Shown here piece by piece: positions 21,777 through 31,003 of a stretch of 52,289 nucleotides of DNA. The DNA comes from Myxococcales bacterium. GTDB taxonomy: Bacteria > Myxococcota > Myxococcia > Myxococcales > Myxococcaceae. How positions within the stretch are numbered: position 1 is the first letter of the stretch; every line of letters begins with the position of its first letter. The DNA lies in the NCBI GenBank assembly GCA_016191815.1, contig JACPVI010000011.1, forward strand, positions 1-52,289, read 5' to 3'. The notes under the pieces were generated by a model, which worked only from the letters and a program-made list of their open reading frames with translations, was not told where the DNA came from and made no database searches. Position numbers and translations under genes: made by a program.

Positions 21777-21780
<4 letters not shown>

Positions 21781-24700
21781 TCCCCTCTTTGTAGAGGAGG
21801 GCGACCCTCAAGGCTATCTTCCCCGTAGAGAAGAGCCACCGGGAATGCCGAGAGCAGCTCGCTCGCCATGAGGCGGCTCATGCCCGCTCCCCGCTCGGGG
21901 CGGTGCGCCCTTCCGGTGAAGACGTCCCTCAGGGCCTTCCCGGACAGCTCCTCGGGCAGCTCGGCGAAGGTGCCCGAGAAAGCGCCGGAGAGCCCTCCGC
22001 GGCCGTTGAGCAGGTGGACCACCAGCCGGGGCGCCACCGCCACCGCCCACCCCTCCGGCCCGCGGCGGCAGAGGCCGACGAGGTGCGAGGAGCGCGGCCC
22101 CCCGAAGTCCAGCGGAAGGTAGGCGCCGGTGTTGAACAGCGCCCCCATCCTCCGCCGGAGCCGAAGAGCCTGGGCGGTGAGGTACAGCTTGGCCCTCCCG
22201 TCGTCCAGCTCGGCGAACAACTCTCGGCAGAGCCCCTCCCGGTCGCGCTCGGCCGCACGGTCCAGCTCCTCGAGCAGCCTCCACCGCAGCTCGTAGTCCA
22301 CCGGCCTTCGGTTGTCCGGATCCACCAGCGAGAGGTTCCAAAGCTCGCAGCCCTGGTAGAAGTCCGCCGTGCCGGGAGAGGCGGCCTTGAGCAGCACCTG
22401 CGAGAGCGAGTTGAGCTGCCCGGGCCGCTCGATGCGTCGCTTGAAGCGGAACGCCTCCTCGACCAGCTCGCCGCCCGACTTGGGATCCAAGCACCCCTCC
22501 ACGAAGCGCTCCACCGCCGCCTCGTAGGCGCGGTCCGGATTCACCCAGCTGGAGTTGACCTTCGCCTCCCGGACCGCCTTGAGCATGTAGTCCCGAAGCC
22601 TCAGGCGGAAGCTCTCTAGGCCCGCCTCGTCAAGCGGCCCGCCCATCGGCCAGGCCCCCACCACCGTCTGGTAGAAGTGGTACTCCTCGTTCCGATCGGG
22701 CGCCAGCCACTCCTCCACCCAGCTCTTGTGGCGCTGGCAGAGGCGGGAGAAGGCCTGCACCCGCTCCTCCCACTCCGAGGGCAGCTCCGAGAGCACGTGC
22801 AGCCGGGCGCGGACGTCCTCGCTGCGCTTGGTGTCGTGGGTGGAGGTGCACAACAGCGACGCCGGCCAGCTCTCCACCCGCTCCTGGTTTCGCAGGTGGA
22901 AGGTAGCCACCGCGGTGCCGAACCTCTCGGGCTCGCCGCCCACCTCGTTGAGCGAGATGAGCCGGTTGTAGACGTAGAACGCGGTGTCCTCGACGCCCTT
23001 GGCCATCACCGGCCCGGTCACCTGCTGGAGCTTCTGGGCGAAGCGCAGCATCACCTTTCGCTCTCGCTCGTCGACGTGCTCGGGGTAGCGGCGGAGCAGC
23101 ACGTCTCTGAGGAAATCGAAGATGGAAACGTTGATGCTCGGGTCCTCCTGCTTCGCCCGGGCGATGGTCCACTCGATGTACTGGACGTCGCGCTCGTCCA
23201 CCTCCGGCCGCCAGTCGTCGACGTAGGTCCGGTACACCGGGAAGAGGGCGATCAGCTCCACCAGGGCCTTCCGCAGGCTGTTCAGGGTGAAGTCCCTGGT
23301 GTGGCGGTTCATCTCCGAGATGCGGTTCAGCTCGCGGGCGAGGACGTTGATCTCGCTCGCCATCGAGGCGCTCATCACCAGCCGCTTCTTCTCGACCACC
23401 AGCCGCCGGTAGTCGAAGGAGCGCCCCACGAAGCGCTGGTACACCTCGGTCATCGCCCGCTCCTGGCCGCGGTCCACCAGCACGCCCCCGACGGAGTTGG
23501 CGAACCGGTAGCCAGTGGTGCCGTGCACCGCCCAGGCGTCGGGGATCCGCTCCCTTCCGCCCTGGATCTTCTCCAGCACCACGTACAGGCTACGCCGGAG
23601 CGGCGAATTGGGGTCCGACCGGACCTCTTCCCGAAAGCGTGCCCGGAGCGGCCGCTCGAGCTCTGCCCACTCCTCATCGGCGCGGGGCAGAAGGCGCCGG
23701 CGGCAGCGCTCCAGGAAGAAGCTCTCTTGGAGGTCCAGGAAGTAGGCGGTCGGGTCAAACAGGCCGTCGGGGTGATCGATCCGCACCCCGGTCACCTTCC
23801 CTTCCCCGAGCCAGCGGAGCAAGAGCTGATGGGTGTGGGAGAAGACCTCTGGATCCTCCACCCGGATGGCCGCCAGGCTGTTGATGTCGAAGAAGCGGCG
23901 GTAGTTGATCTCCTCCCCCGCCACTCGCCAATGGGCGAGCCGATGGCAACAGGCGCTCAGCACCTCATCGAGGCGGTCGAACGACCGGGGGTCTCCCACC
24001 TTCCCGTTGATGGTGGCGACGCTGGACTCGATGAAGGACTTGATCGCCGCGCTTCGCTCCGCGAGGGCGGCCAGCCTCCGCTTGACGACCTCTTTCTCCC
24101 GGCTGCGTTCGGCCACCTTCTCGGCTTCGGTCTCGGTGCGCGCCGGCAGGTGCTCGACCGCGGTGAGGACGGACTGCAGCTCGATGAAGTCGAGGTCCGT
24201 GCGCCCGAGGGTGCGCTCCAGCTCCTCCAGCCCCGGTCCCAGCAGCAGGCGGTAGGCCCTGGGAGCGACGGGGAAGGAGAGGTCCTGGTAGCGCACCTCG
24301 AAGCCGCCGTCGGCGAACGCGAGTCTCAGCTCAGCTCGCTCGAGCACCGCCCCGTACTGGTCTCCCAGGATGGGGAGGAGGACCTTGTTCTTGAGCTGCT
24401 CCTTCACCGGGTCCCAGTCCACGTCGAAGAACTTGGCGTAGCGGGAGGAGGGGCCGTTCTCGAGCAGGTCGCGCCACAGGGCATTGCCCCGCTCGATGCC
24501 CATGTGGTTGGGGACGAAGTCCTGCAAGAGCCCCATCCCGTGCTCGGCGAGCGCGGCGCAGAGCTCTTCGTGCTCGGCCTCGCTGCCCAGCTCGGGGTTG
24601 AGGCGGGTGTGGTCGACCACGTCGTACCCGTGGGTGCTTCCCGGCTGAGCGGCGAGGCAGGGAGACGAGTAGAGGGTCGAAACCCCCAGCCGCGAGAGGT

Positions 24701-24839
24701 AGGGCACCACCGCGCGCGCGTCGGAGAAACGGAAGCTGCGGTGGAGCTGCACCCGGTAAGTGGACTGGGGGAGCCGGGAGCGGGCGAGCTCGGACCTCAC
24801 CTGGTCGAACAGCTCGTCGACGCCCTTCGGCGCGGCCAT
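21777..24839 (-). CDS. treY: Malto-oligosyltrehalose synthase TreY
   Basis: 1020 aa from ATG 24839. It converts the reducing end of maltodextrins from alpha-1,4 to the alpha,alpha-1,1 linkage of trehalose. Family features are STYRVQLHRSFRFSDAR, YLSRLGVSTLYSSPCLAA, GSTHGYDVVDHTRLNPE, FVPNHMGIERGN, VTGVRIDHPDGLFDP and GVEDTAFYVYNRL. GlgX follows with a 4-bp overlap. The partner hydrolase TreZ is not in the window. An upstream extension to 24938 exists in frame but lacks family similarity. Confidence 0.96.
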
Positions 24840-24914
24840 GGCGCGTGCATAGCCCGCCGCGAGAGGTGCCGCACCGCGCGCCTCTCCGATGCGACCACTG
24901 CTGGACGCAAGCAA

Positions 24915-24947
24915 AGAGGGCCTGTCCTTTCGGAGCACAGGCCCTCT
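24915..24947 (-). terminator. Rho-independent terminator after the SWIB gene
   Basis: An 11-bp perfect inverted repeat (AGAGGGCCTGT at 24915-24925 and ACAGGCCCTCT at 24937-24947) with an 11-nt loop. On the minus strand the stem is followed by TTTGCTTGC. It lies 24 bp beyond the SWIB stop and before treY, so it separates the two units. Confidence 0.8.
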
Positions 24948-24970: not shown

Positions 24971-25270
24971 CTAGCTGAGGTGCTTGGCCACCAGGGCGGT
25001 CATCTTGAACATGTCGACCGACGACTTGCCGCCGAAGATGGGCCGCAGCTTGTCGTCCGCGTGGATGATCTTCCTCTGCTGGGGATCCTGCAGCTTGTTC
25101 TTCTTGATGTAGTCCCACACGCGGCTGGTGACCTCGGTCCGCGGGATGGGCTTGTCGCCGACAATCGCGGCCAGCTCTGGTGAGGGCTGGAGCGGCTTCA
25201 TGAAGGCGGCATTGGGCTTACGCTTGGTGGTCTTCTTCGCGGTCTTCTTCGCTGTCTTCTTGGCGGGCAT
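24971..25270 (-). CDS. SWIB/MDM2-domain protein
   Basis: 99 aa. A lysine/alanine/threonine-rich histone H1-like N-terminus (AKKTAKKTAKKTTKRK) precedes a SWIB domain: MKPLQPSPELAAIVG, VTSRVWDYIKKNKLQDP, RKIIHADDKLRPIFG and FKMTALVAKHL. Bacterial SWIB proteins occur in chlamydiae and myxobacteria and are thought to be chromatin- or topoisomerase-associated. ATG 25270 is used, with a ggggaggag ribosome site 11-12 nt upstream. An open frame continues upstream across the divergent repeat gene but is a low-complexity shadow. Confidence 0.93.
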   Translation of the reverse strand: MPAKKTAKKTAKKTTKRKPNAAFMKPLQPSPELAAIVGDKPIPRTEVTSRVWDYIKKNKLQDPQQRKIIHADDKLRPIFGGKSSVDMFKMTALVAKHLS

Positions 25271-25529: not shown

Positions 25530-26243
25530 ATGGCAAAAATCACTCGCAAGAGCCCGAGCATGCCGAAGTTTCCGCGGGAGCTGCCGAAGAAGCCGCGGAC
25601 GGAGAGCCCGAAGAAGCCGGTCACGCCGAAGCGGCCGAAGGTGAGCATTCCGAAGCCGGGCAGGCCGGAGAAGCGGCCGCCGCGGCCAATCCCGGAGATT
25701 GCGCCCGACAGACCAGGCAAGCGGCCGCCGAAGCCGCGGCCGATTCCCGAGGTGGCTCCGGAGATTCGTCCCCCGCGGCCGCCGCGCCCGCCGAGGCCGG
25801 AGATTCGGCCTATTCCGGAGATTCGTCCGGAAATCCGCCCGGAGATCCGACCCGAGATCCGGCCCATCCCCGAGATTCGTCCGGAGATCCGGCCCCTCCC
25901 CGAGATCCGGCCCCTCCCCGAGATTCGTCCGGAGATCCGGCCCCTCCCCGAGATCCGGCCCATCCCCGAGATTCGTCCGGAGATCCGGCCCCTCCCTGAG
26001 ATCCGGCCCATCCCCGAGATACGGCCGGAGATCCGGCCCCTCCCTGAGATTCGGCCCATCCCCGAGATCCGTCCGGAGATCCGCCCCCTCCCCGAGGTCG
26101 CGCCGGAGATCCGGCCCATCCCGGAGATTCGTCCAGAGATCCGCCCCATCCCGGAAGTGGCCCCCGAGATACGGCCGGAGATCCGCCCGATCGCCGAGGT
26201 CGCGCCAAATCGGCCGATCCGCCGGAGGGGCGACGACACCTAG
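25530..26243 (+). CDS. Proline-rich EIRP-repeat protein (candidate modified-peptide precursor)
   Basis: 237 aa. The first 50 residues are Lys/Pro/Arg rich (MAKITRKSPSMPKFPREL). From about residue 78 the sequence is almost entirely EIRP units joined by LP, IP or directly, about 25 copies, with three PEVAP/AEVAP variants near the end and a tail RPIRRRGDDT. There is no signal peptide, membrane helix, Cys or Trp and no family I recognise. ATG 25530 has a strong agggggac ribosome site; the stop is 18 bp before the next gene. The following genes encode an AMMECR1 fusion and a RiPP-type radical SAM enzyme, so I infer it may be their substrate. A structural proline-rich protein is the alternative. 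Confidence 0.75.
   Translation: MAKITRKSPSMPKFPRELPKKPRTESPKKPVTPKRPKVSIPKPGRPEKRPPRPIPEIAPDRPGKRPPKPRPIPEVAPEIRPPRPPRPPRPEIRPIPEIRPEIRPEIRPEIRPIPEIRPEIRPLPEIRPLPEIRPEIRPLPEIRPIPEIRPEIRPLPEIRPIPEIRPEIRPLPEIRPIPEIRPEIRPLPEVAPEIRPIPEIRPEIRPIPEVAPEIRPEIRPIAEVAPNRPIRRRGDDT
25875..26106 (+). repeat. Tandem repeat, 48-bp higher-order unit
   Basis: Within the repeat gene, DNA units coding EIRPLPEIRPIPEIRP recur in tandem about three times with few changes, flanked by shorter 12-bp and 15-bp units. Synonymous changes (gagatccgg versus gagattcgt) alternate regularly, which suggests recent duplication of a 48-bp block. It is coding, not a CRISPR: there are no unique spacers. Confidence 0.75.
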
Positions 26244-26261
26244 GCGGAAAAAGGTCCAAGC

Positions 26262-29174
26262 ATGAGGGACGCCGCGCCGCGCAAGGTGGCCAGGAGCATG
26301 CGCGGCGATCGGGCGCCCTCCCTGCACCTGCCTGCCCCACGAGCGACTGAGCGGGAAGCACTGCTCGATCTGCTCCGGCGCGACGGCATCCTCTACCGCT
26401 CAGAGACGCAGCCCGTCCTCTCCCGCGACGGCACCTCAGCGAGGTGGATGCTGGACTCGCTCAAGGTGACGCTCACCCCGCGCGGCGCGGAGCTTGCGGG
26501 CCAGTGCCTCTTGCAGTTGCTCGAGCAATTCCAGGGGCGTCAGCTCGCCACCTACGGCACCACCGGCATTCCTCTGCTGCAATCGTGCGTGCTCCAGTCG
26601 AACGGGCGCTACCGCGGCCTCCTGGTGCGGAAAGAGCGAAAGCCGCACGGCTCGCGGAAGCTCATCGAGGGGCCGATCGACCCGAGCGAGCCGGTCGTCA
26701 TCGTCGACGACTCGGTGAGCTCCGGGCTGTCGGTGACCGAGTGCGCCTCCAGACTCGAGGAGGCCGGGCTGTGGGTCGAAGGAGGAGTCTGCCTGGTCCG
26801 CTTCGGCTGGAACGGCGGCTTCTCGCGGATGGCCGGCACCGGCTACCGGATGGCGGCGGTGTTCGACATCTGGGACGACTTCATCAACCACATGCCGGAC
26901 GAGGAGCCCATCCCCGCCAACCCGAGCCGCGTCATTCCCCCGTTCGAGTGGAGCCCGAAGCGGGCCGCCGAAGGCCGGCACCCCGCCTCGCTCATGCGAG
27001 AGGTGATCGCCGAGTGCTTGCGCTCCGGGAAGCTCTTGCTCCCGCCTCGGCGCCTGGACCGCCCCTATGACGGCGCCGGCGGAGTCTGGGTGAGCGTGCG
27101 CGCGAGAGAGAACCTGCACCACCGCCACGCCCGGGGCGGCTTCTGGCACTTCCCCGGTGAGGAACGCGGCCCGTTGCCCCACGAGCTGACCCTTTCGGCG
27201 TACCTCACCGCCCGCGAGCTGGCGCAAAAGGAGGCCGACCCCGCCGCCGCCCTCGGCGCCAGCGCCATCGCAGTCACCTTCTTCTCCGCCCTCGAGGAGT
27301 GCTCCGCCGGCGAGCTGGACAACGACCGCTACGGCATCGTGGTGCGAAGCCGCGAGCGCCCCTCCTGGATGGGCGGGGCGCTGCCCAGGATGCCCGGCAT
27401 CGAAGGCGAGTGGCATCAGCTCCACCACGCGCGCATCCGCAACGCCGGGCTGGACCCTTGCGAGCCGTACGCCATCTTCCGCCATGAGGTCTACAAGGTC
27501 GTCGAACCCGGAGCGGCATGGCAGAAGACCGGCGTCCCGCTCGGCAACTCCCTCGCCTGGCACGACGACCCGGCCGTATGCGGCGCGGTGTCCCTGCGCG
27601 CCCGGGCGCTGGTGCTCTCGAGGCTCGGCGCCAAGCTGGACTCGGCTCCGCTGCCCGAGGGCCTGCTGCCGAAGTCCGTCGACTCGCTCTACGTGAGCAT
27701 CTACTCCGGCGGCCGGCTCTCCGGCTGCATGGGCGGGACGGTGCGAGAGCCGGAGCGAGACCTCGAGCGCCTCTGCGCCGCCGCGGTCGATGATCCACGC
27801 TTTGGCAAGGCGGCGGGGGCTGATCCCCAGGCGCTCGCGGTGGCGGTGGCCTTCCTCCACGAGCCTTTGGAGATGGGAGAGGCCTCACCCGAGGAGGCGG
27901 TCTACCCGGTCCGCCACGCCGAGCAAGCCCTGATGGCCTACCAGGGAGAGCGGGTGGGGCTCTTGCTGCCGCACGTGGCGATCTCCTCCAACCTCGGCCC
28001 GGCCGACTACGCCCGGGCGGTGCTGGAGAAGGCCGGCATCTCGCAGCCGCCCTATCGCTGGGTCCGCTTCGACTGCCAGAGCTGGCTTTGCGACGAGGGC
28101 GGCCCGCGCAAGCTGGACCGCCTCTGGGTTCCCGGCGAGCCGCCGCGCTCCGCCGACGCTGGCGTCGCCAAGCTGGCGCCCCTGCTCGCCGGCTACCTGC
28201 TCAAGCACCAGCGGCCCCACGGAGAGCCATTCGGCCATTACGATCCTTTCGCCGACGTGCTCACGCCCGGCCTCGAGCCTCCGCGGCTCGCGCACCTCGC
28301 CTGGACGCTGGAGCGCGCCCACCGGAGGCTCAAAGACCCGGCGCTGAGCAAGACCGCGCGCGCGGTTGGAGGCCGACTCGCAGGTACGCTGAAGGACGCC
28401 GAAGATGGGCTGTGGCTCGAGACCGAGGAAGAGACGATCTCGGAGCTGTCTTTCCTTCTCCTCGCCCATTGCGACGGGCTGAAGGCGCTCTTGCGCGAGC
28501 AGGCCAAGAGGCTCGCCGCCACACTCTGGTCGCGCATCGACGCCCACGGCCGCCTCCGGACTCACCGGAACCCCGCCCTCGGGCACGACGCTTTCCAGGA
28601 CTACTACCCCGGGCAGGCGCTTCTGGCGCTCGCCCGCGCCGCCGGTTCCGGGCTCTGCGAGGTTGATCAGCCGGCCATCGATCGCGCGTGGCGCTTCTAC
28701 CGCCACCGCTTCGGAGTGCGGCACTCGTGGGGCTCGGCCTCCTGGCTGCTCCAGGCCTGCGAGGCGTGGCATCGGCTCACCCGGGACGACCGGCTCGCGT
28801 CGCTCGCGGAGGAGATCTGCTCGTTCGCGCTCTGGCACCAGCAGGCTGCCGGCGGCTTCATCAACGACCACCAGCGGGACTCGCCGGGGTTCACCACCGC
28901 GCTCTACCTGGAAGGGATCGCCGCGGCCGCGATGCTGGCGAGGGATCGCCGCGACCGTTCGCTCCGAAGGCGCTGCCTCGACTCCTGCGAGCGGGGGCTC
29001 AGGTTCGTCGACCGGCTGGTCTACCAGGAGCGCGACTTTCCGCTCTTGCCCAACCCGGATTGGGCGCTGGGTGGAGTGAAGGCCAGCCTGGTCTCGGCGG
29101 AGGTGCGGCTGGACTTCGTGCAGCACACCCTGCTCGCGGTGCTGGGGATCGGCGAGGCCCTACAGGAGCGATGA
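26262..29174 (+). CDS. Fusion protein: phosphoribosyltransferase-like, two AMMECR1-like domains and helical toroid
   Basis: 970 aa. Residues about 45-235 resemble an orotate-type phosphoribosyltransferase, with PRPP loop VVIVDDSVSSG (145-155). Residues about 244-413 look like a degenerate AMMECR1 domain (GVWVSVR start, end MGGALPRMPG and HEVYKVV). Residues about 445-610 are a clearer AMMECR1 domain with LSGCMGG (485-491, the RGCIG-motif position) and LLLPHVAISS. The last 330 residues have repeated Trp/His helix pairs (HDAFQDYYPGQALLAL, WGSASWLLQACEAW, GFTTALYLEG) as in alpha/alpha-toroid hydrolases or cyclases. The next gene, a radical SAM enzyme, overlaps by 4 bp. AMMECR1 proteins are genomically tied to radical SAM enzymes, but their reaction is unknown. 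Confidence 0.82.
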   Translation: MRDAAPRKVARSMRGDRAPSLHLPAPRATEREALLDLLRRDGILYRSETQPVLSRDGTSARWMLDSLKVTLTPRGAELAGQCLLQLLEQFQGRQLATYGTTGIPLLQSCVLQSNGRYRGLLVRKERKPHGSRKLIEGPIDPSEPVVIVDDSVSSGLSVTECASRLEEAGLWVEGGVCLVRFGWNGGFSRMAGTGYRMAAVFDIWDDFINHMPDEEPIPANPSRVIPPFEWSPKRAAEGRHPASLMREVIAECLRSGKLLLPPRRLDRPYDGAGGVWVSVRARENLHHRHARGGFWHFPGEERGPLPHELTLSAYLTARELAQKEADPAAALGASAIAVTFFSALEECSAGELDNDRYGIVVRSRERPSWMGGALPRMPGIEGEWHQLHHARIRNAGLDPCEPYAIFRHEVYKVVEPGAAWQKTGVPLGNSLAWHDDPAVCGAVSLRARALVLSRLGAKLDSAPLPEGLLPKSVDSLYVSIYSGGRLSGCMGGTVREPERDLERLCAAAVDDPRFGKAAGADPQALAVAVAFLHEPLEMGEASPEEAVYPVRHAEQALMAYQGERVGLLLPHVAISSNLGPADYARAVLEKAGISQPPYRWVRFDCQSWLCDEGGPRKLDRLWVPGEPPRSADAGVAKLAPLLAGYLLKHQRPHGEPFGHYDPFADVLTPGLEPPRLAHLAWTLERAHRRLKDPALSKTARAVGGRLAGTLKDAEDGLWLETEEETISELSFLLLAHCDGLKALLREQAKRLAATLWSRIDAHGRLRTHRNPALGHDAFQDYYPGQALLALARAAGSGLCEVDQPAIDRAWRFYRHRFGVRHSWGSASWLLQACEAWHRLTRDDRLASLAEEICSFALWHQQAAGGFINDHQRDSPGFTTALYLEGIAAAAMLARDRRDRSLRRRCLDSCERGLRFVDRLVYQERDFPLLPNPDWALGGVKASLVSAEVRLDFVQHTLLAVLGIGEALQER

Positions 29175-31003
29175 GTCCCAAGCCGGTGGCGCTGGTGAGC
29201 ATGCCGACCCTCTCGGCGCGCTTTCCGTCGTTCCAGCTCGCCCTCCTCCAGCCGGCGCTGGAGCGCGAGGGCATCGAGGTGAAGCCCTTCTCGCTCTTCC
29301 TCTACTTCGGGGCCCACGTGGGCTGGGAGCTGAACGAGACCATCTCCAACGTCTACCCGAGCATGGTCGGCGAGTGGGTCTGGTCGAAGGCGACCTTCGG
29401 CGATTTCGCGGATCCGCGAGGCTACCGCTCGCTCTACCGGGAGGAGCTGGAGGAGATCTGCGCGCTGGCAGGTTGCACCTTCGCGGATCTGCTCCGGGTG
29501 CGTGAGGAGCTGACCTTCTCCTTCCTCGACCGGATGCTGGAGGCCGTCGACTGGTCGCGCTTCGAGCTGATCGGCTTCAGCGTCTGCTTCCAGCAGATGC
29601 TGGCCAGCCTGGCGATGGCCCGCTGGCTCAAGAAGAAGCACCCGGACATCCCGATCGTCTTCGGCGGGGCGACCTTCGAGGACGACATCGCCCATGAGGT
29701 GCTGCGCGGCAGCCCCCAGGTCGACTTCGTCCACTGCGGCGATGCAGAGAGCTCGTTCCCCGAGCTGGTGAAGCGGCTTCGCGAAGGCCGCCCGCTCTCG
29801 GGCCTGCCGGGGCTGATGCGGCGCGAAGGCGGCCAGCTCTCCTACGCCGGCCGCTCGCCGAACCTGGAGGATCTGGACCAGACGCCGGTGCCGGACTTCG
29901 ACGAGTACTTCTACGCGCGGGAGCGGAGCGGCTACGAGCGCCATCCGGGGGCGAAGGAGGTGCTCCTGCCCATCGAGACGGCCAGAGGCTGCTGGTACGG
30001 GATGAAGAACCACTGCACCTTCTGCGGGCTCAACCGAGCGGGCCTCCAGTTCCGCGCCAAGAGCCCCGAGAAGGTGCTGGAGATGTTGAAGGCGCTCTCG
30101 CGCCGGTACGGGGCTTTGCACTTCAACGCCATCGATAACATCCTGGCGCCGGAGTACGCGGGCGAGTTGTTCGGCCGGCTGGCCGAGGCGCACACCGACT
30201 TGCGGTTGCACTACGAGATTCGCCCCAACACCTCGCGCGCGCTGCTCAAGAAGATGAAGCTGGGGGGGCTGGTCTCGGTGCAGCCGGGAGTGGAGAGCTT
30301 CTCCACCCACGTGCTGTCTTTGATGAGAAAGCACACCACCGCGCTCCGAAACCTCGAGCTGGTGAAGTGGACCACCTATTACGGCATCGAGAACTACTAC
30401 AACGTGCTGGTGGGCTTCTCCGGCGAGACCGCGGAGGACTATCGCGCGCAGGCGGAGCTGATGCGGAAGCTCTTCCACCTGCAGCCACCATACGCCATCG
30501 CCCGGGCGCGCCCCGACCGCGGCTCGCCGATGTTCGAGCAGCCCAAGGAGCACGGCATCCGCGTGCTGAGGCCTTCGCCCTGCTACGCGCACCTCTACCC
30601 GAAGGACCGCTTCAATCTCTCGCAGGTGTCGTACTTCTTCGAGCACGAGGTGGAGGACACCCCGACGGCCGAGCAGTACCAGGAGTGCTTCGAGGTGGTG
30701 GCGGAGTGGCAGCGCCGGTGGAAGGGGGCTCCGCCCTTCCTCCGCTACCGGAAGAGCTGGGAGACCATCAGCCTCGAGGATGGCAGGGGCGACACTCCGC
30801 ACCTGTGGCGCTACGACGACCGCGAGGCGGAGCTGTACGAGCTATGCGCCGACGGCAAGCGGCGCGAGGATCTGGCCGACCACTTCAAGGGTGACGCCCA
30901 CTGGCTGGAGGGAGCGCTGCGGGACTTCTTGGCGAAAGACCTGATGGTCTTCCTCGACGGCCGCTACCTCGCGCTGGCTTTGCCGGTGAACCCCTCGTTT
31001 TGA
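29171..31003 (+). CDS. B12-binding radical SAM enzyme, RiPP maturation class (rSAM_ocin_1-like)
   Basis: 610 aa. The N-terminal part is a cobalamin-binding-like Rossmann domain (ELIGFSVCFQQMLASL, IVFGGATFEDD, VHCGDAESSFPELV). The radical SAM core has C274-x7-C282-x2-C285 in ARGCWYGMKNHCTFCGLN, then FNAIDNIL, VSVQPGVESFS and YYNVLVGFSGE. This layout matches the family annotated as ribosomal peptide maturation radical SAM protein 1. Such enzymes bind a 4Fe-4S cluster and SAM; B12-dependent members usually methylate unreactive carbons of peptides. The C-terminal 90 residues may be a peptide-recognition segment. It overlaps the AMMECR1 fusion gene by 4 bp (ATGA). Confidence 0.88.
   Translation: MSPKPVALVSMPTLSARFPSFQLALLQPALEREGIEVKPFSLFLYFGAHVGWELNETISNVYPSMVGEWVWSKATFGDFADPRGYRSLYREELEEICALAGCTFADLLRVREELTFSFLDRMLEAVDWSRFELIGFSVCFQQMLASLAMARWLKKKHPDIPIVFGGATFEDDIAHEVLRGSPQVDFVHCGDAESSFPELVKRLREGRPLSGLPGLMRREGGQLSYAGRSPNLEDLDQTPVPDFDEYFYARERSGYERHPGAKEVLLPIETARGCWYGMKNHCTFCGLNRAGLQFRAKSPEKVLEMLKALSRRYGALHFNAIDNILAPEYAGELFGRLAEAHTDLRLHYEIRPNTSRALLKKMKLGGLVSVQPGVESFSTHVLSLMRKHTTALRNLELVKWTTYYGIENYYNVLVGFSGETAEDYRAQAELMRKLFHLQPPYAIARARPDRGSPMFEQPKEHGIRVLRPSPCYAHLYPKDRFNLSQVSYFFEHEVEDTPTAEQYQECFEVVAEWQRRWKGAPPFLRYRKSWETISLEDGRGDTPHLWRYDDREAELYELCADGKRREDLADHFKGDAHWLEGALRDFLAKDLMVFLDGRYLALALPVNPSF

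Follow-up and report, generated by a model that had tools for sequence, protein, structure and literature searches.

The window analysed here, a stretch of 52,289 nucleotides from a Myxococcales bacterium (assembly GCA_016191815.1, contig JACPVI010000011.1, positions 1 to 52,289), carries a three-gene cassette encoding a proline-rich repeat protein, a large multidomain fusion protein and a radical S-adenosylmethionine (SAM) enzyme. The cassette probably acts like a system for ribosomally synthesized and post-translationally modified peptides (RiPPs), in which the repetitive protein would be modified, with the radical SAM enzyme as a likely C-methylase and the fusion protein dependent on phosphoribosyl pyrophosphate (PRPP). 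This is supported by the association of the repeat gene with the enzyme genes in all 14 assessable loci, the TIGR03975 assignment of the radical SAM enzyme, its RRE-like domain, motif retention in the fusion protein, correlated divergence of the two enzymes and variable tailoring enzymes. An initial annotation had described the three genes as one unit with spacings of 18 bp and -4 bp, and the open reading frames (ORFs) were found exactly so: 18 bp separate the repeat and fusion genes, and the fusion and radical SAM genes share a 4-bp ATGA overlap. The genes are the following.

25530..26243, + strand: repeat protein gene, 237 amino acids (aa), from the ORF and the unit count
26262..29174, + strand: fusion protein gene, 970 aa, with orotate phosphoribosyltransferase (OPRT)-like, AMMECR1 and epimerase-like barrel domains
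29171..31003, + strand: radical SAM gene, 610 aa, B12-dependent type, TIGR03975

Conservation of the cassette and of its repeat protein

Relatives with both enzymes were gathered from the genome collection and from searches of 144 relatives, 195 Myxococcota and 347 Acidobacteriota. Further searches covered 248 genomes from the genus of a Mycobacterium isolate, 345 from the class of an Acidimicrobiaceae metagenome-assembled genome and 346 Actinomycetota; the genome sets partly overlap. A Pro-rich gene with E-[V/I]-x-P repeats lies beside the enzyme genes in 14 of the 14 loci assessable by their readable flanks (the window, L066, L067, L069, L070, L071, L072, L073, L075, L110, L111, L112, L118 and L122), which belong to 13 genomes in three phyla (Myxococcota, Acidobacteriota and Actinomycetota), one Mycobacterium isolate holding two of them. 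The initial annotation had suggested such a neighbourhood search with the radical SAM gene, naming enzyme pairs that never neighbour repeat proteins as the result that would speak against modification of the repeats; the repeat protein adjoined the pair at every assessable locus.

At L118 the radical SAM gene shares the contig with the other two but is at a distance of about 21 kb (L074), and in genome G009 the cassette is split over two contigs (L122 and L065), with the break within the fusion gene. A contig end truncates one more relative, L068, which stands outside the 14. The usual gene order is repeat, fusion, radical SAM; L066 and L110 have repeat, radical SAM, fusion, and at L070 the radical SAM gene is divergent. 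Because the order varies in this way (three orders), a functional link is favoured over a merely inherited one. The cassette has apparently spread horizontally, being rare and scattered over three phyla, as expected of a horizontally moving unit. An all-against-all comparison of neighbours found no fourth family common to more than two loci.

The repeat protein had been annotated as holding 25 EIRP copies, and our count gave exactly 25, with 30 E[IV]xP units in total. Cys, Tyr and Trp are absent from the protein, and Ser and Thr are absent inside the repeats. With no motif imposed, [DE][VILM]xP was enriched at least 4-fold over shuffles in 14 of 14 repeat proteins and had the best worst-case enrichment among the top patterns. 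Typical units across loci are PEVAP, TEVAP, VEVAP, REIGP, MEVGP and EIRP. The constants are Glu, an aliphatic residue and Pro; the residue preceding Pro is variable (A, G, R, K, H, S) and therefore an unlikely target of modification. The first unit is preceded by a segment that, from its sequence, may serve as a leader.

25530..25694, + strand: N-terminal Lys/Pro-rich segment, aa 1-55, possible leader

Low-complexity proteins are common in genomes of high guanine-cytosine content, and an ORF of this kind might lie beside two enzymes by accident. We rejected this explanation, which is extremely improbable, on the neighbourhood survey, the control loci and a genome-wide pattern search. Against the 14 of 14 loci in three phyla, no such repeat ORF turned up in control loci totalling 324 kb, some of which are more distant TIGR03975 loci. 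When the whole 6.77-Mb genome was searched for the tandem E[IV]xP-E[IV]xP motif as a DNA pattern, 11 of the 13 occurrences fell inside the repeat gene (a reversed-pattern control gave 2 occurrences). In addition, the 25 EIRP copies are encoded with three Ile, four Arg and four Pro codons; the copies thus diverge at silent sites and still encode one peptide, which means that selection acts on the encoded protein and that the repeat did not arise by recent DNA slippage.

Domain anatomy of the two enzymes

The radical SAM protein scores 523.9 bits against TIGR03975 (rSAM_ocin_1; cutoff 281.85) over the full model and is thus a member of this family. It matches PF04055 (1.3e-12), and its score against the B12-binding model PF02310 is just below the cutoff (31.0 against 32.1 bits). 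The cluster motif C274-C282-C285 and the B12-like domain of the initial annotation both held: the cysteines are invariant, and the predicted model (mean pLDDT 80, weak near the cluster loop) matches the B12-dependent enzymes OxsB, TokK, TsrM and CysS over the whole chain. In the last 80 residues the model has three strands, three helices and a wing, and this part resembles the TbiB1-lasso leader complex 5v1v (Z 8.8, root-mean-square deviation (rmsd) 2.3, 73 of 88 residues aligned). The segment scores 26.5 against a PqqD profile from PqqD of the relatives, compared with no more than 15.0 when columns are shuffled as a control and 17.9 for the highest-scoring segment elsewhere. On this modelled fold the C-terminus is an RRE-like domain predicted to bind a leader. 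The RiPP recognition element (RRE) is the usual leader-binding module in RiPP enzymes.

29990..30025, + strand: CX7CX2C cluster motif C274-C282-C285 (CWYGMKNHCTFC), invariant in 12 relatives
30737..30973, + strand: C-terminal RRE-like domain (PqqD/lasso leader-binding type), aa 523-601, from the 5v1v match and the PqqD profile

The fusion protein (model mean pLDDT 85) had been annotated as a phosphoribosyltransferase/AMMECR1 fusion, in agreement with its matches to pyrE (3.6e-14) and PF01871 (6.7e-13). It is composed of four regions.

26343..26885, + strand: OPRT-like phosphoribosyltransferase domain, about aa 28-208, from the pyrE match, the 5hki fold match and motifs
26886..27536, + strand: middle region, aa 209-425, candidate degenerate first AMMECR1-like copy, from the order of secondary-structure elements
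27669..28097, + strand: AMMECR1 domain, about aa 470-612, with invariant Cys489; PF01871 match, and 1zq7 at 1.3e-18 (profile)
28140..29171, + strand: (alpha/alpha)6 barrel, aa 627-970; 9l8i, Z 28.1, rmsd 3.0, 320 residues aligned

The OPRT-like domain matches the fold of 5hki (TM 0.83 of the target) and has the loop RKE-x-K-x-HG (aa 123-130) and the PRPP motif VIVDDSVSSG (aa 146-155), with the aspartates D149 and D150. These conserved active-site motifs point to a working phosphoribosyltransferase-like domain, yet at 52.9 bits against the pyrE equivalog (cutoff 106.8) it does not fall within PyrE. For the middle region, the order of the modelled elements weakly suggests a degenerate copy of AMMECR1 (profile score 18.1; best shuffle 17.0). 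The AMMECR1 domain proper matches 1vaj as well as 1zq7. The barrel has the fold of the cellobiose 2-epimerase / N-acylglucosamine 2-epimerase (AGE) family, being closest to cellobiose 2-epimerase; unlike the members of that family, it is joined to other domains, and its identity to them is 10-15%. R685 (19 of 19 readable sequences) and H955 (18 of 18) lie near the positions where the N-terminal Arg and C-terminal His of the family's catalytic His/Arg set would be expected. Separately, a 639-aa protein (L121:7752-9671, G183) has a C-terminal part that matches this barrel and has no Pfam or NCBIfam match.

Neither the middle and C-terminal parts of the fusion protein nor the radical SAM C-terminus had a Pfam match, and a PDB sequence-profile search with the latter found no meaningful match. 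The RRE-like and epimerase-like domains, both beyond the description in the initial annotation, were recognized because structures were compared.

In all 14 cassette copies the fusion protein retains the OPRT loop, the PRPP motif and the AMMECR1 Cys, with small local substitutions. The same motifs are decayed or deleted in 3 of 3 stand-alone copies from other myxobacteria, one of which still has RKE.

L115:5995-8898: stand-alone fusion copy
L116:8409-11267: stand-alone fusion copy
L117:8045-10306: stand-alone fusion copy

Neither a repeat gene nor a radical SAM gene is near these three copies, which seem to keep the fold for another use; they are often near a glutathione-S-transferase-like gene. 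Within the cassettes the fusion and radical SAM proteins are co-inherited, their divergences being correlated with r = 0.84 (Mantel p = 0.0002).

Accessory enzymes, related loci and known systems

Additional enzymes are found at some loci. A 2-oxoglutarate-Fe(II) oxygenase adjoins the repeat gene at L066 and L110, and a further TIGR03975 enzyme, scoring 712 bits, is encoded at L112. At L122 an LxmK-like kinase (NF038156, 97 bits, below the cutoff of 315) and a HopA1 protein (PF17914, 5e-31) are encoded between the repeat and fusion genes, and the repeat carries Ser and Thr (PTSIRP, KSIRP). Varying tailoring enzymes on a constant core are typical of RiPP clusters. The kinase and HopA1 protein occupy L122:361-3257, the latter with a further C-terminal part.

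Some loci hold systems of other composition. Directly downstream of the cassette at L066 there is a GDL-motif-type radical SAM/SPASM maturase (L066:12770-14533; TIGR03913, 652.9 bits), accompanied by a 97-aa Lys-rich small protein with a DUF1843 match, and the two are a second peptide-modification system alongside the cassette. At two Acidobacteriota loci (L113:1605-9812, - strand; L114:350-8112, + strand) the fusion relative has no AMMECR1 domain. It is accompanied by an enzyme that is borderline for TIGR03975 (282.1 bits against a cutoff of 281.85) and by another kind of repetitive protein, with DLQIKHKLQLGDE-like units (QIKHKLQLGDE-like); possibly these loci are a second flavour of the same system. 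L119:5055-10618 (G050) is an uncharacterised RiPP-type cluster with a TIGR03975 enzyme 40% identical to that of the cassette, a SPASM enzyme resembling DarW, a protein of the YcaO type and a candidate precursor of 128 aa.

The genes upstream of the cassette are ordinary and apparently not linked to it.

24971-25270, - strand: Lys-rich protein with a SWIB-like C-terminus; best matches are topoisomerase/SWI fusion models
21777-24938, - strand: malto-oligosyltrehalose synthase

A consensus scan found no sigma-70-type promoter, a negative that says little in this organism. A role in anti-phage defence was rejected, PADLOC giving no match. The radical SAM protein had no match among phage records, and in plasmid records the matches of the fusion protein were limited to pyrimidine-pathway proteins, against the OPRT part.

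Among known systems, the cassette shares with TIGR03975 RiPP pathways the enzyme family by curated cutoff, an adjacent candidate precursor gene and a leader-binding-type domain. It differs from them in having a long Pro-rich repeat protein as candidate substrate in place of a short peptide, the OPRT-AMMECR1-epimerase-like fusion as partner, and no conserved protease or transporter. B12-type radical SAM enzymes C-methylate bottromycin (BotRMT1-3) and polytheonamide (PoyB, PoyC), with Val and Pro among the targets (PMC11285071), and these residues are constants of the cassette motif; however, the enzyme families differ, the precursors there are short, and methylation in the cassette is inferred. 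In AmmeMemoRadiSam systems (AMMECR1, Memo and radical SAM), as here, AMMECR1 is found in the company of a radical SAM enzyme. We rejected membership of that group: AmmeMemoSam_A (TIGR04335) gave 47.9 bits against a cutoff of 99, no Memo gene is common to the loci, and the radical SAM enzyme belongs to TIGR03975, with no AmmeMemoRadiSam model listed for it. In class V lanthipeptides a pair of LxmK/CaoK and HopA1-like LxmY/CaoY dehydrates Ser and Thr (PMC9486802). L122 alone resembles this, with its kinase, HopA1 protein and Ser/Thr repeat, but the kinase is below the LxmK cutoff, and lanthionine is not expected from a repeat that contains no Cys. LxmK and HopA1 genes are missing from the cassette in the window, and class V membership was rejected.

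Proposed function and competing explanations

RiPP systems have a precursor gene beside the enzyme and a leader-recognition domain. The repeat gene, present at 14 of 14 loci, is taken here as the candidate precursor, and the RRE is predicted from the model and the PqqD profile. With its C-terminal RRE-like domain the radical SAM enzyme would bind the repeat protein, and it would then proceed along the E-[V/I]-x-P units. Its most likely reaction there is C-methylation at an unactivated carbon, in Val/Ile or Pro (or Glu). The fusion protein would act on the same protein or supply a group for it; its OPRT-like domain would use PRPP, and the AMMECR1 cysteine site and the epimerase-like barrel may act in linked steps. 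Glu, as the sole fixed polar residue of the shared motif, is where a PRPP-derived group would naturally be attached. That the repeat protein is the substrate, what chemistry it undergoes, which residue is the target and in what order the steps occur are all inferred. Genes for a protease or a transporter do not recur among the loci; the repeat protein may therefore stay full length after modification. A more specific version, which would be a new type of protein modification, is unlikely in all its details: the OPRT-like domain would place a phosphoribosyl group on the repeat Glu (or Arg) and the barrel would rearrange it, which together with radical C-methylation would give a hypermodified, sugar-decorated polyproline protein of full length.

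The initial annotation had taken the EIRP units as cores modified by the radical SAM enzyme, with the fusion protein as nucleotide-dependent partner. The 14/14 association and the RRE-like domain strengthen the pairing of the repeat protein with both enzymes; C-methylation or another modification, and EIRP units as released cores, stay hypothetical. The conserved OPRT and PRPP motifs agree with the proposed partner, except that the expected ligand is PRPP and not a nucleotide.

Several points weigh against the proposed modification of the repeat protein. No modification of the repeats was observed, and the structure models of the radical SAM and fusion proteins are of single chains. In their N-terminal segments the repeat proteins differ strongly from one another and offer the RRE-like domain no obvious common ligand, and no common leader motif was seen among the repeat proteins compared. 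No protease or transporter recurred beside the cassette in the loci compared; these could be encoded elsewhere. Finally, one B12 radical SAM enzyme in a biphenomycin-like RiPP pathway forms a cross-link instead of methylating (PMC12257519).

The missing protease and transporter bear on a classical multicore RiPP, in which the modified repeats would be excised and exported as many small peptides by a protease and a transporter encoded elsewhere. TIGR03975 and the RRE-like domain are RiPP hallmarks, the repeats are regular, and the 40%-identical relative at L119 sits in an ordinary RiPP-type cluster. However, the lack of recurrent export and cleavage genes beside the cassette, the irregular spacing of units at several loci and the absence of an evident constant cleavage site make this possible but doubtful. 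The repeat protein might also be an unmodified scaffold or carrier, a polyproline rod that organizes both enzymes, with a small molecule or another protein as true substrate. Pro-rich repeats do form stiff rods, and the domains of the fusion are familiar from small-molecule chemistry (OPRT and sugar epimerase folds). This is improbable given the RRE-like domain, a radical SAM family named for RiPP maturation, and units fixed as E-[V/I]-x-P beyond a mere Pro-rich composition; moreover L122, the locus with the Ser/Thr-dehydration pair, is one with Ser/Thr in its repeat.

Our literature search, which paired AMMECR1 with radical SAM, with RiPPs or with phosphoribosyltransferase, brought up no description of a system so composed, as the initial annotation had also held, a result limited to open papers that leaves absence unproven. 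Memo-AMMECR1 systems with a radical SAM enzyme are mentioned in another context (PMC7159879). The radical SAM part of the cassette is of a known kind; the partner enzyme and the type of substrate are new. To our knowledge AMMECR1, which is conserved in humans, has no established biochemical function, and we know of no cooperation between a PRPP-dependent transferase, AMMECR1 and an epimerase-like barrel. The cassette brings these three together with a radical SAM enzyme of the B12 type and one defined repeat protein, and the co-encoded likely substrate offers a direct route to testing an AMMECR1 function. The cultured Mycobacterium isolate with two copies makes the system testable; Mycobacterium sp. 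OAS707 is a cultured carrier. If the units are modified dozens of times per chain, the product would be a new type of hypermodified protein.
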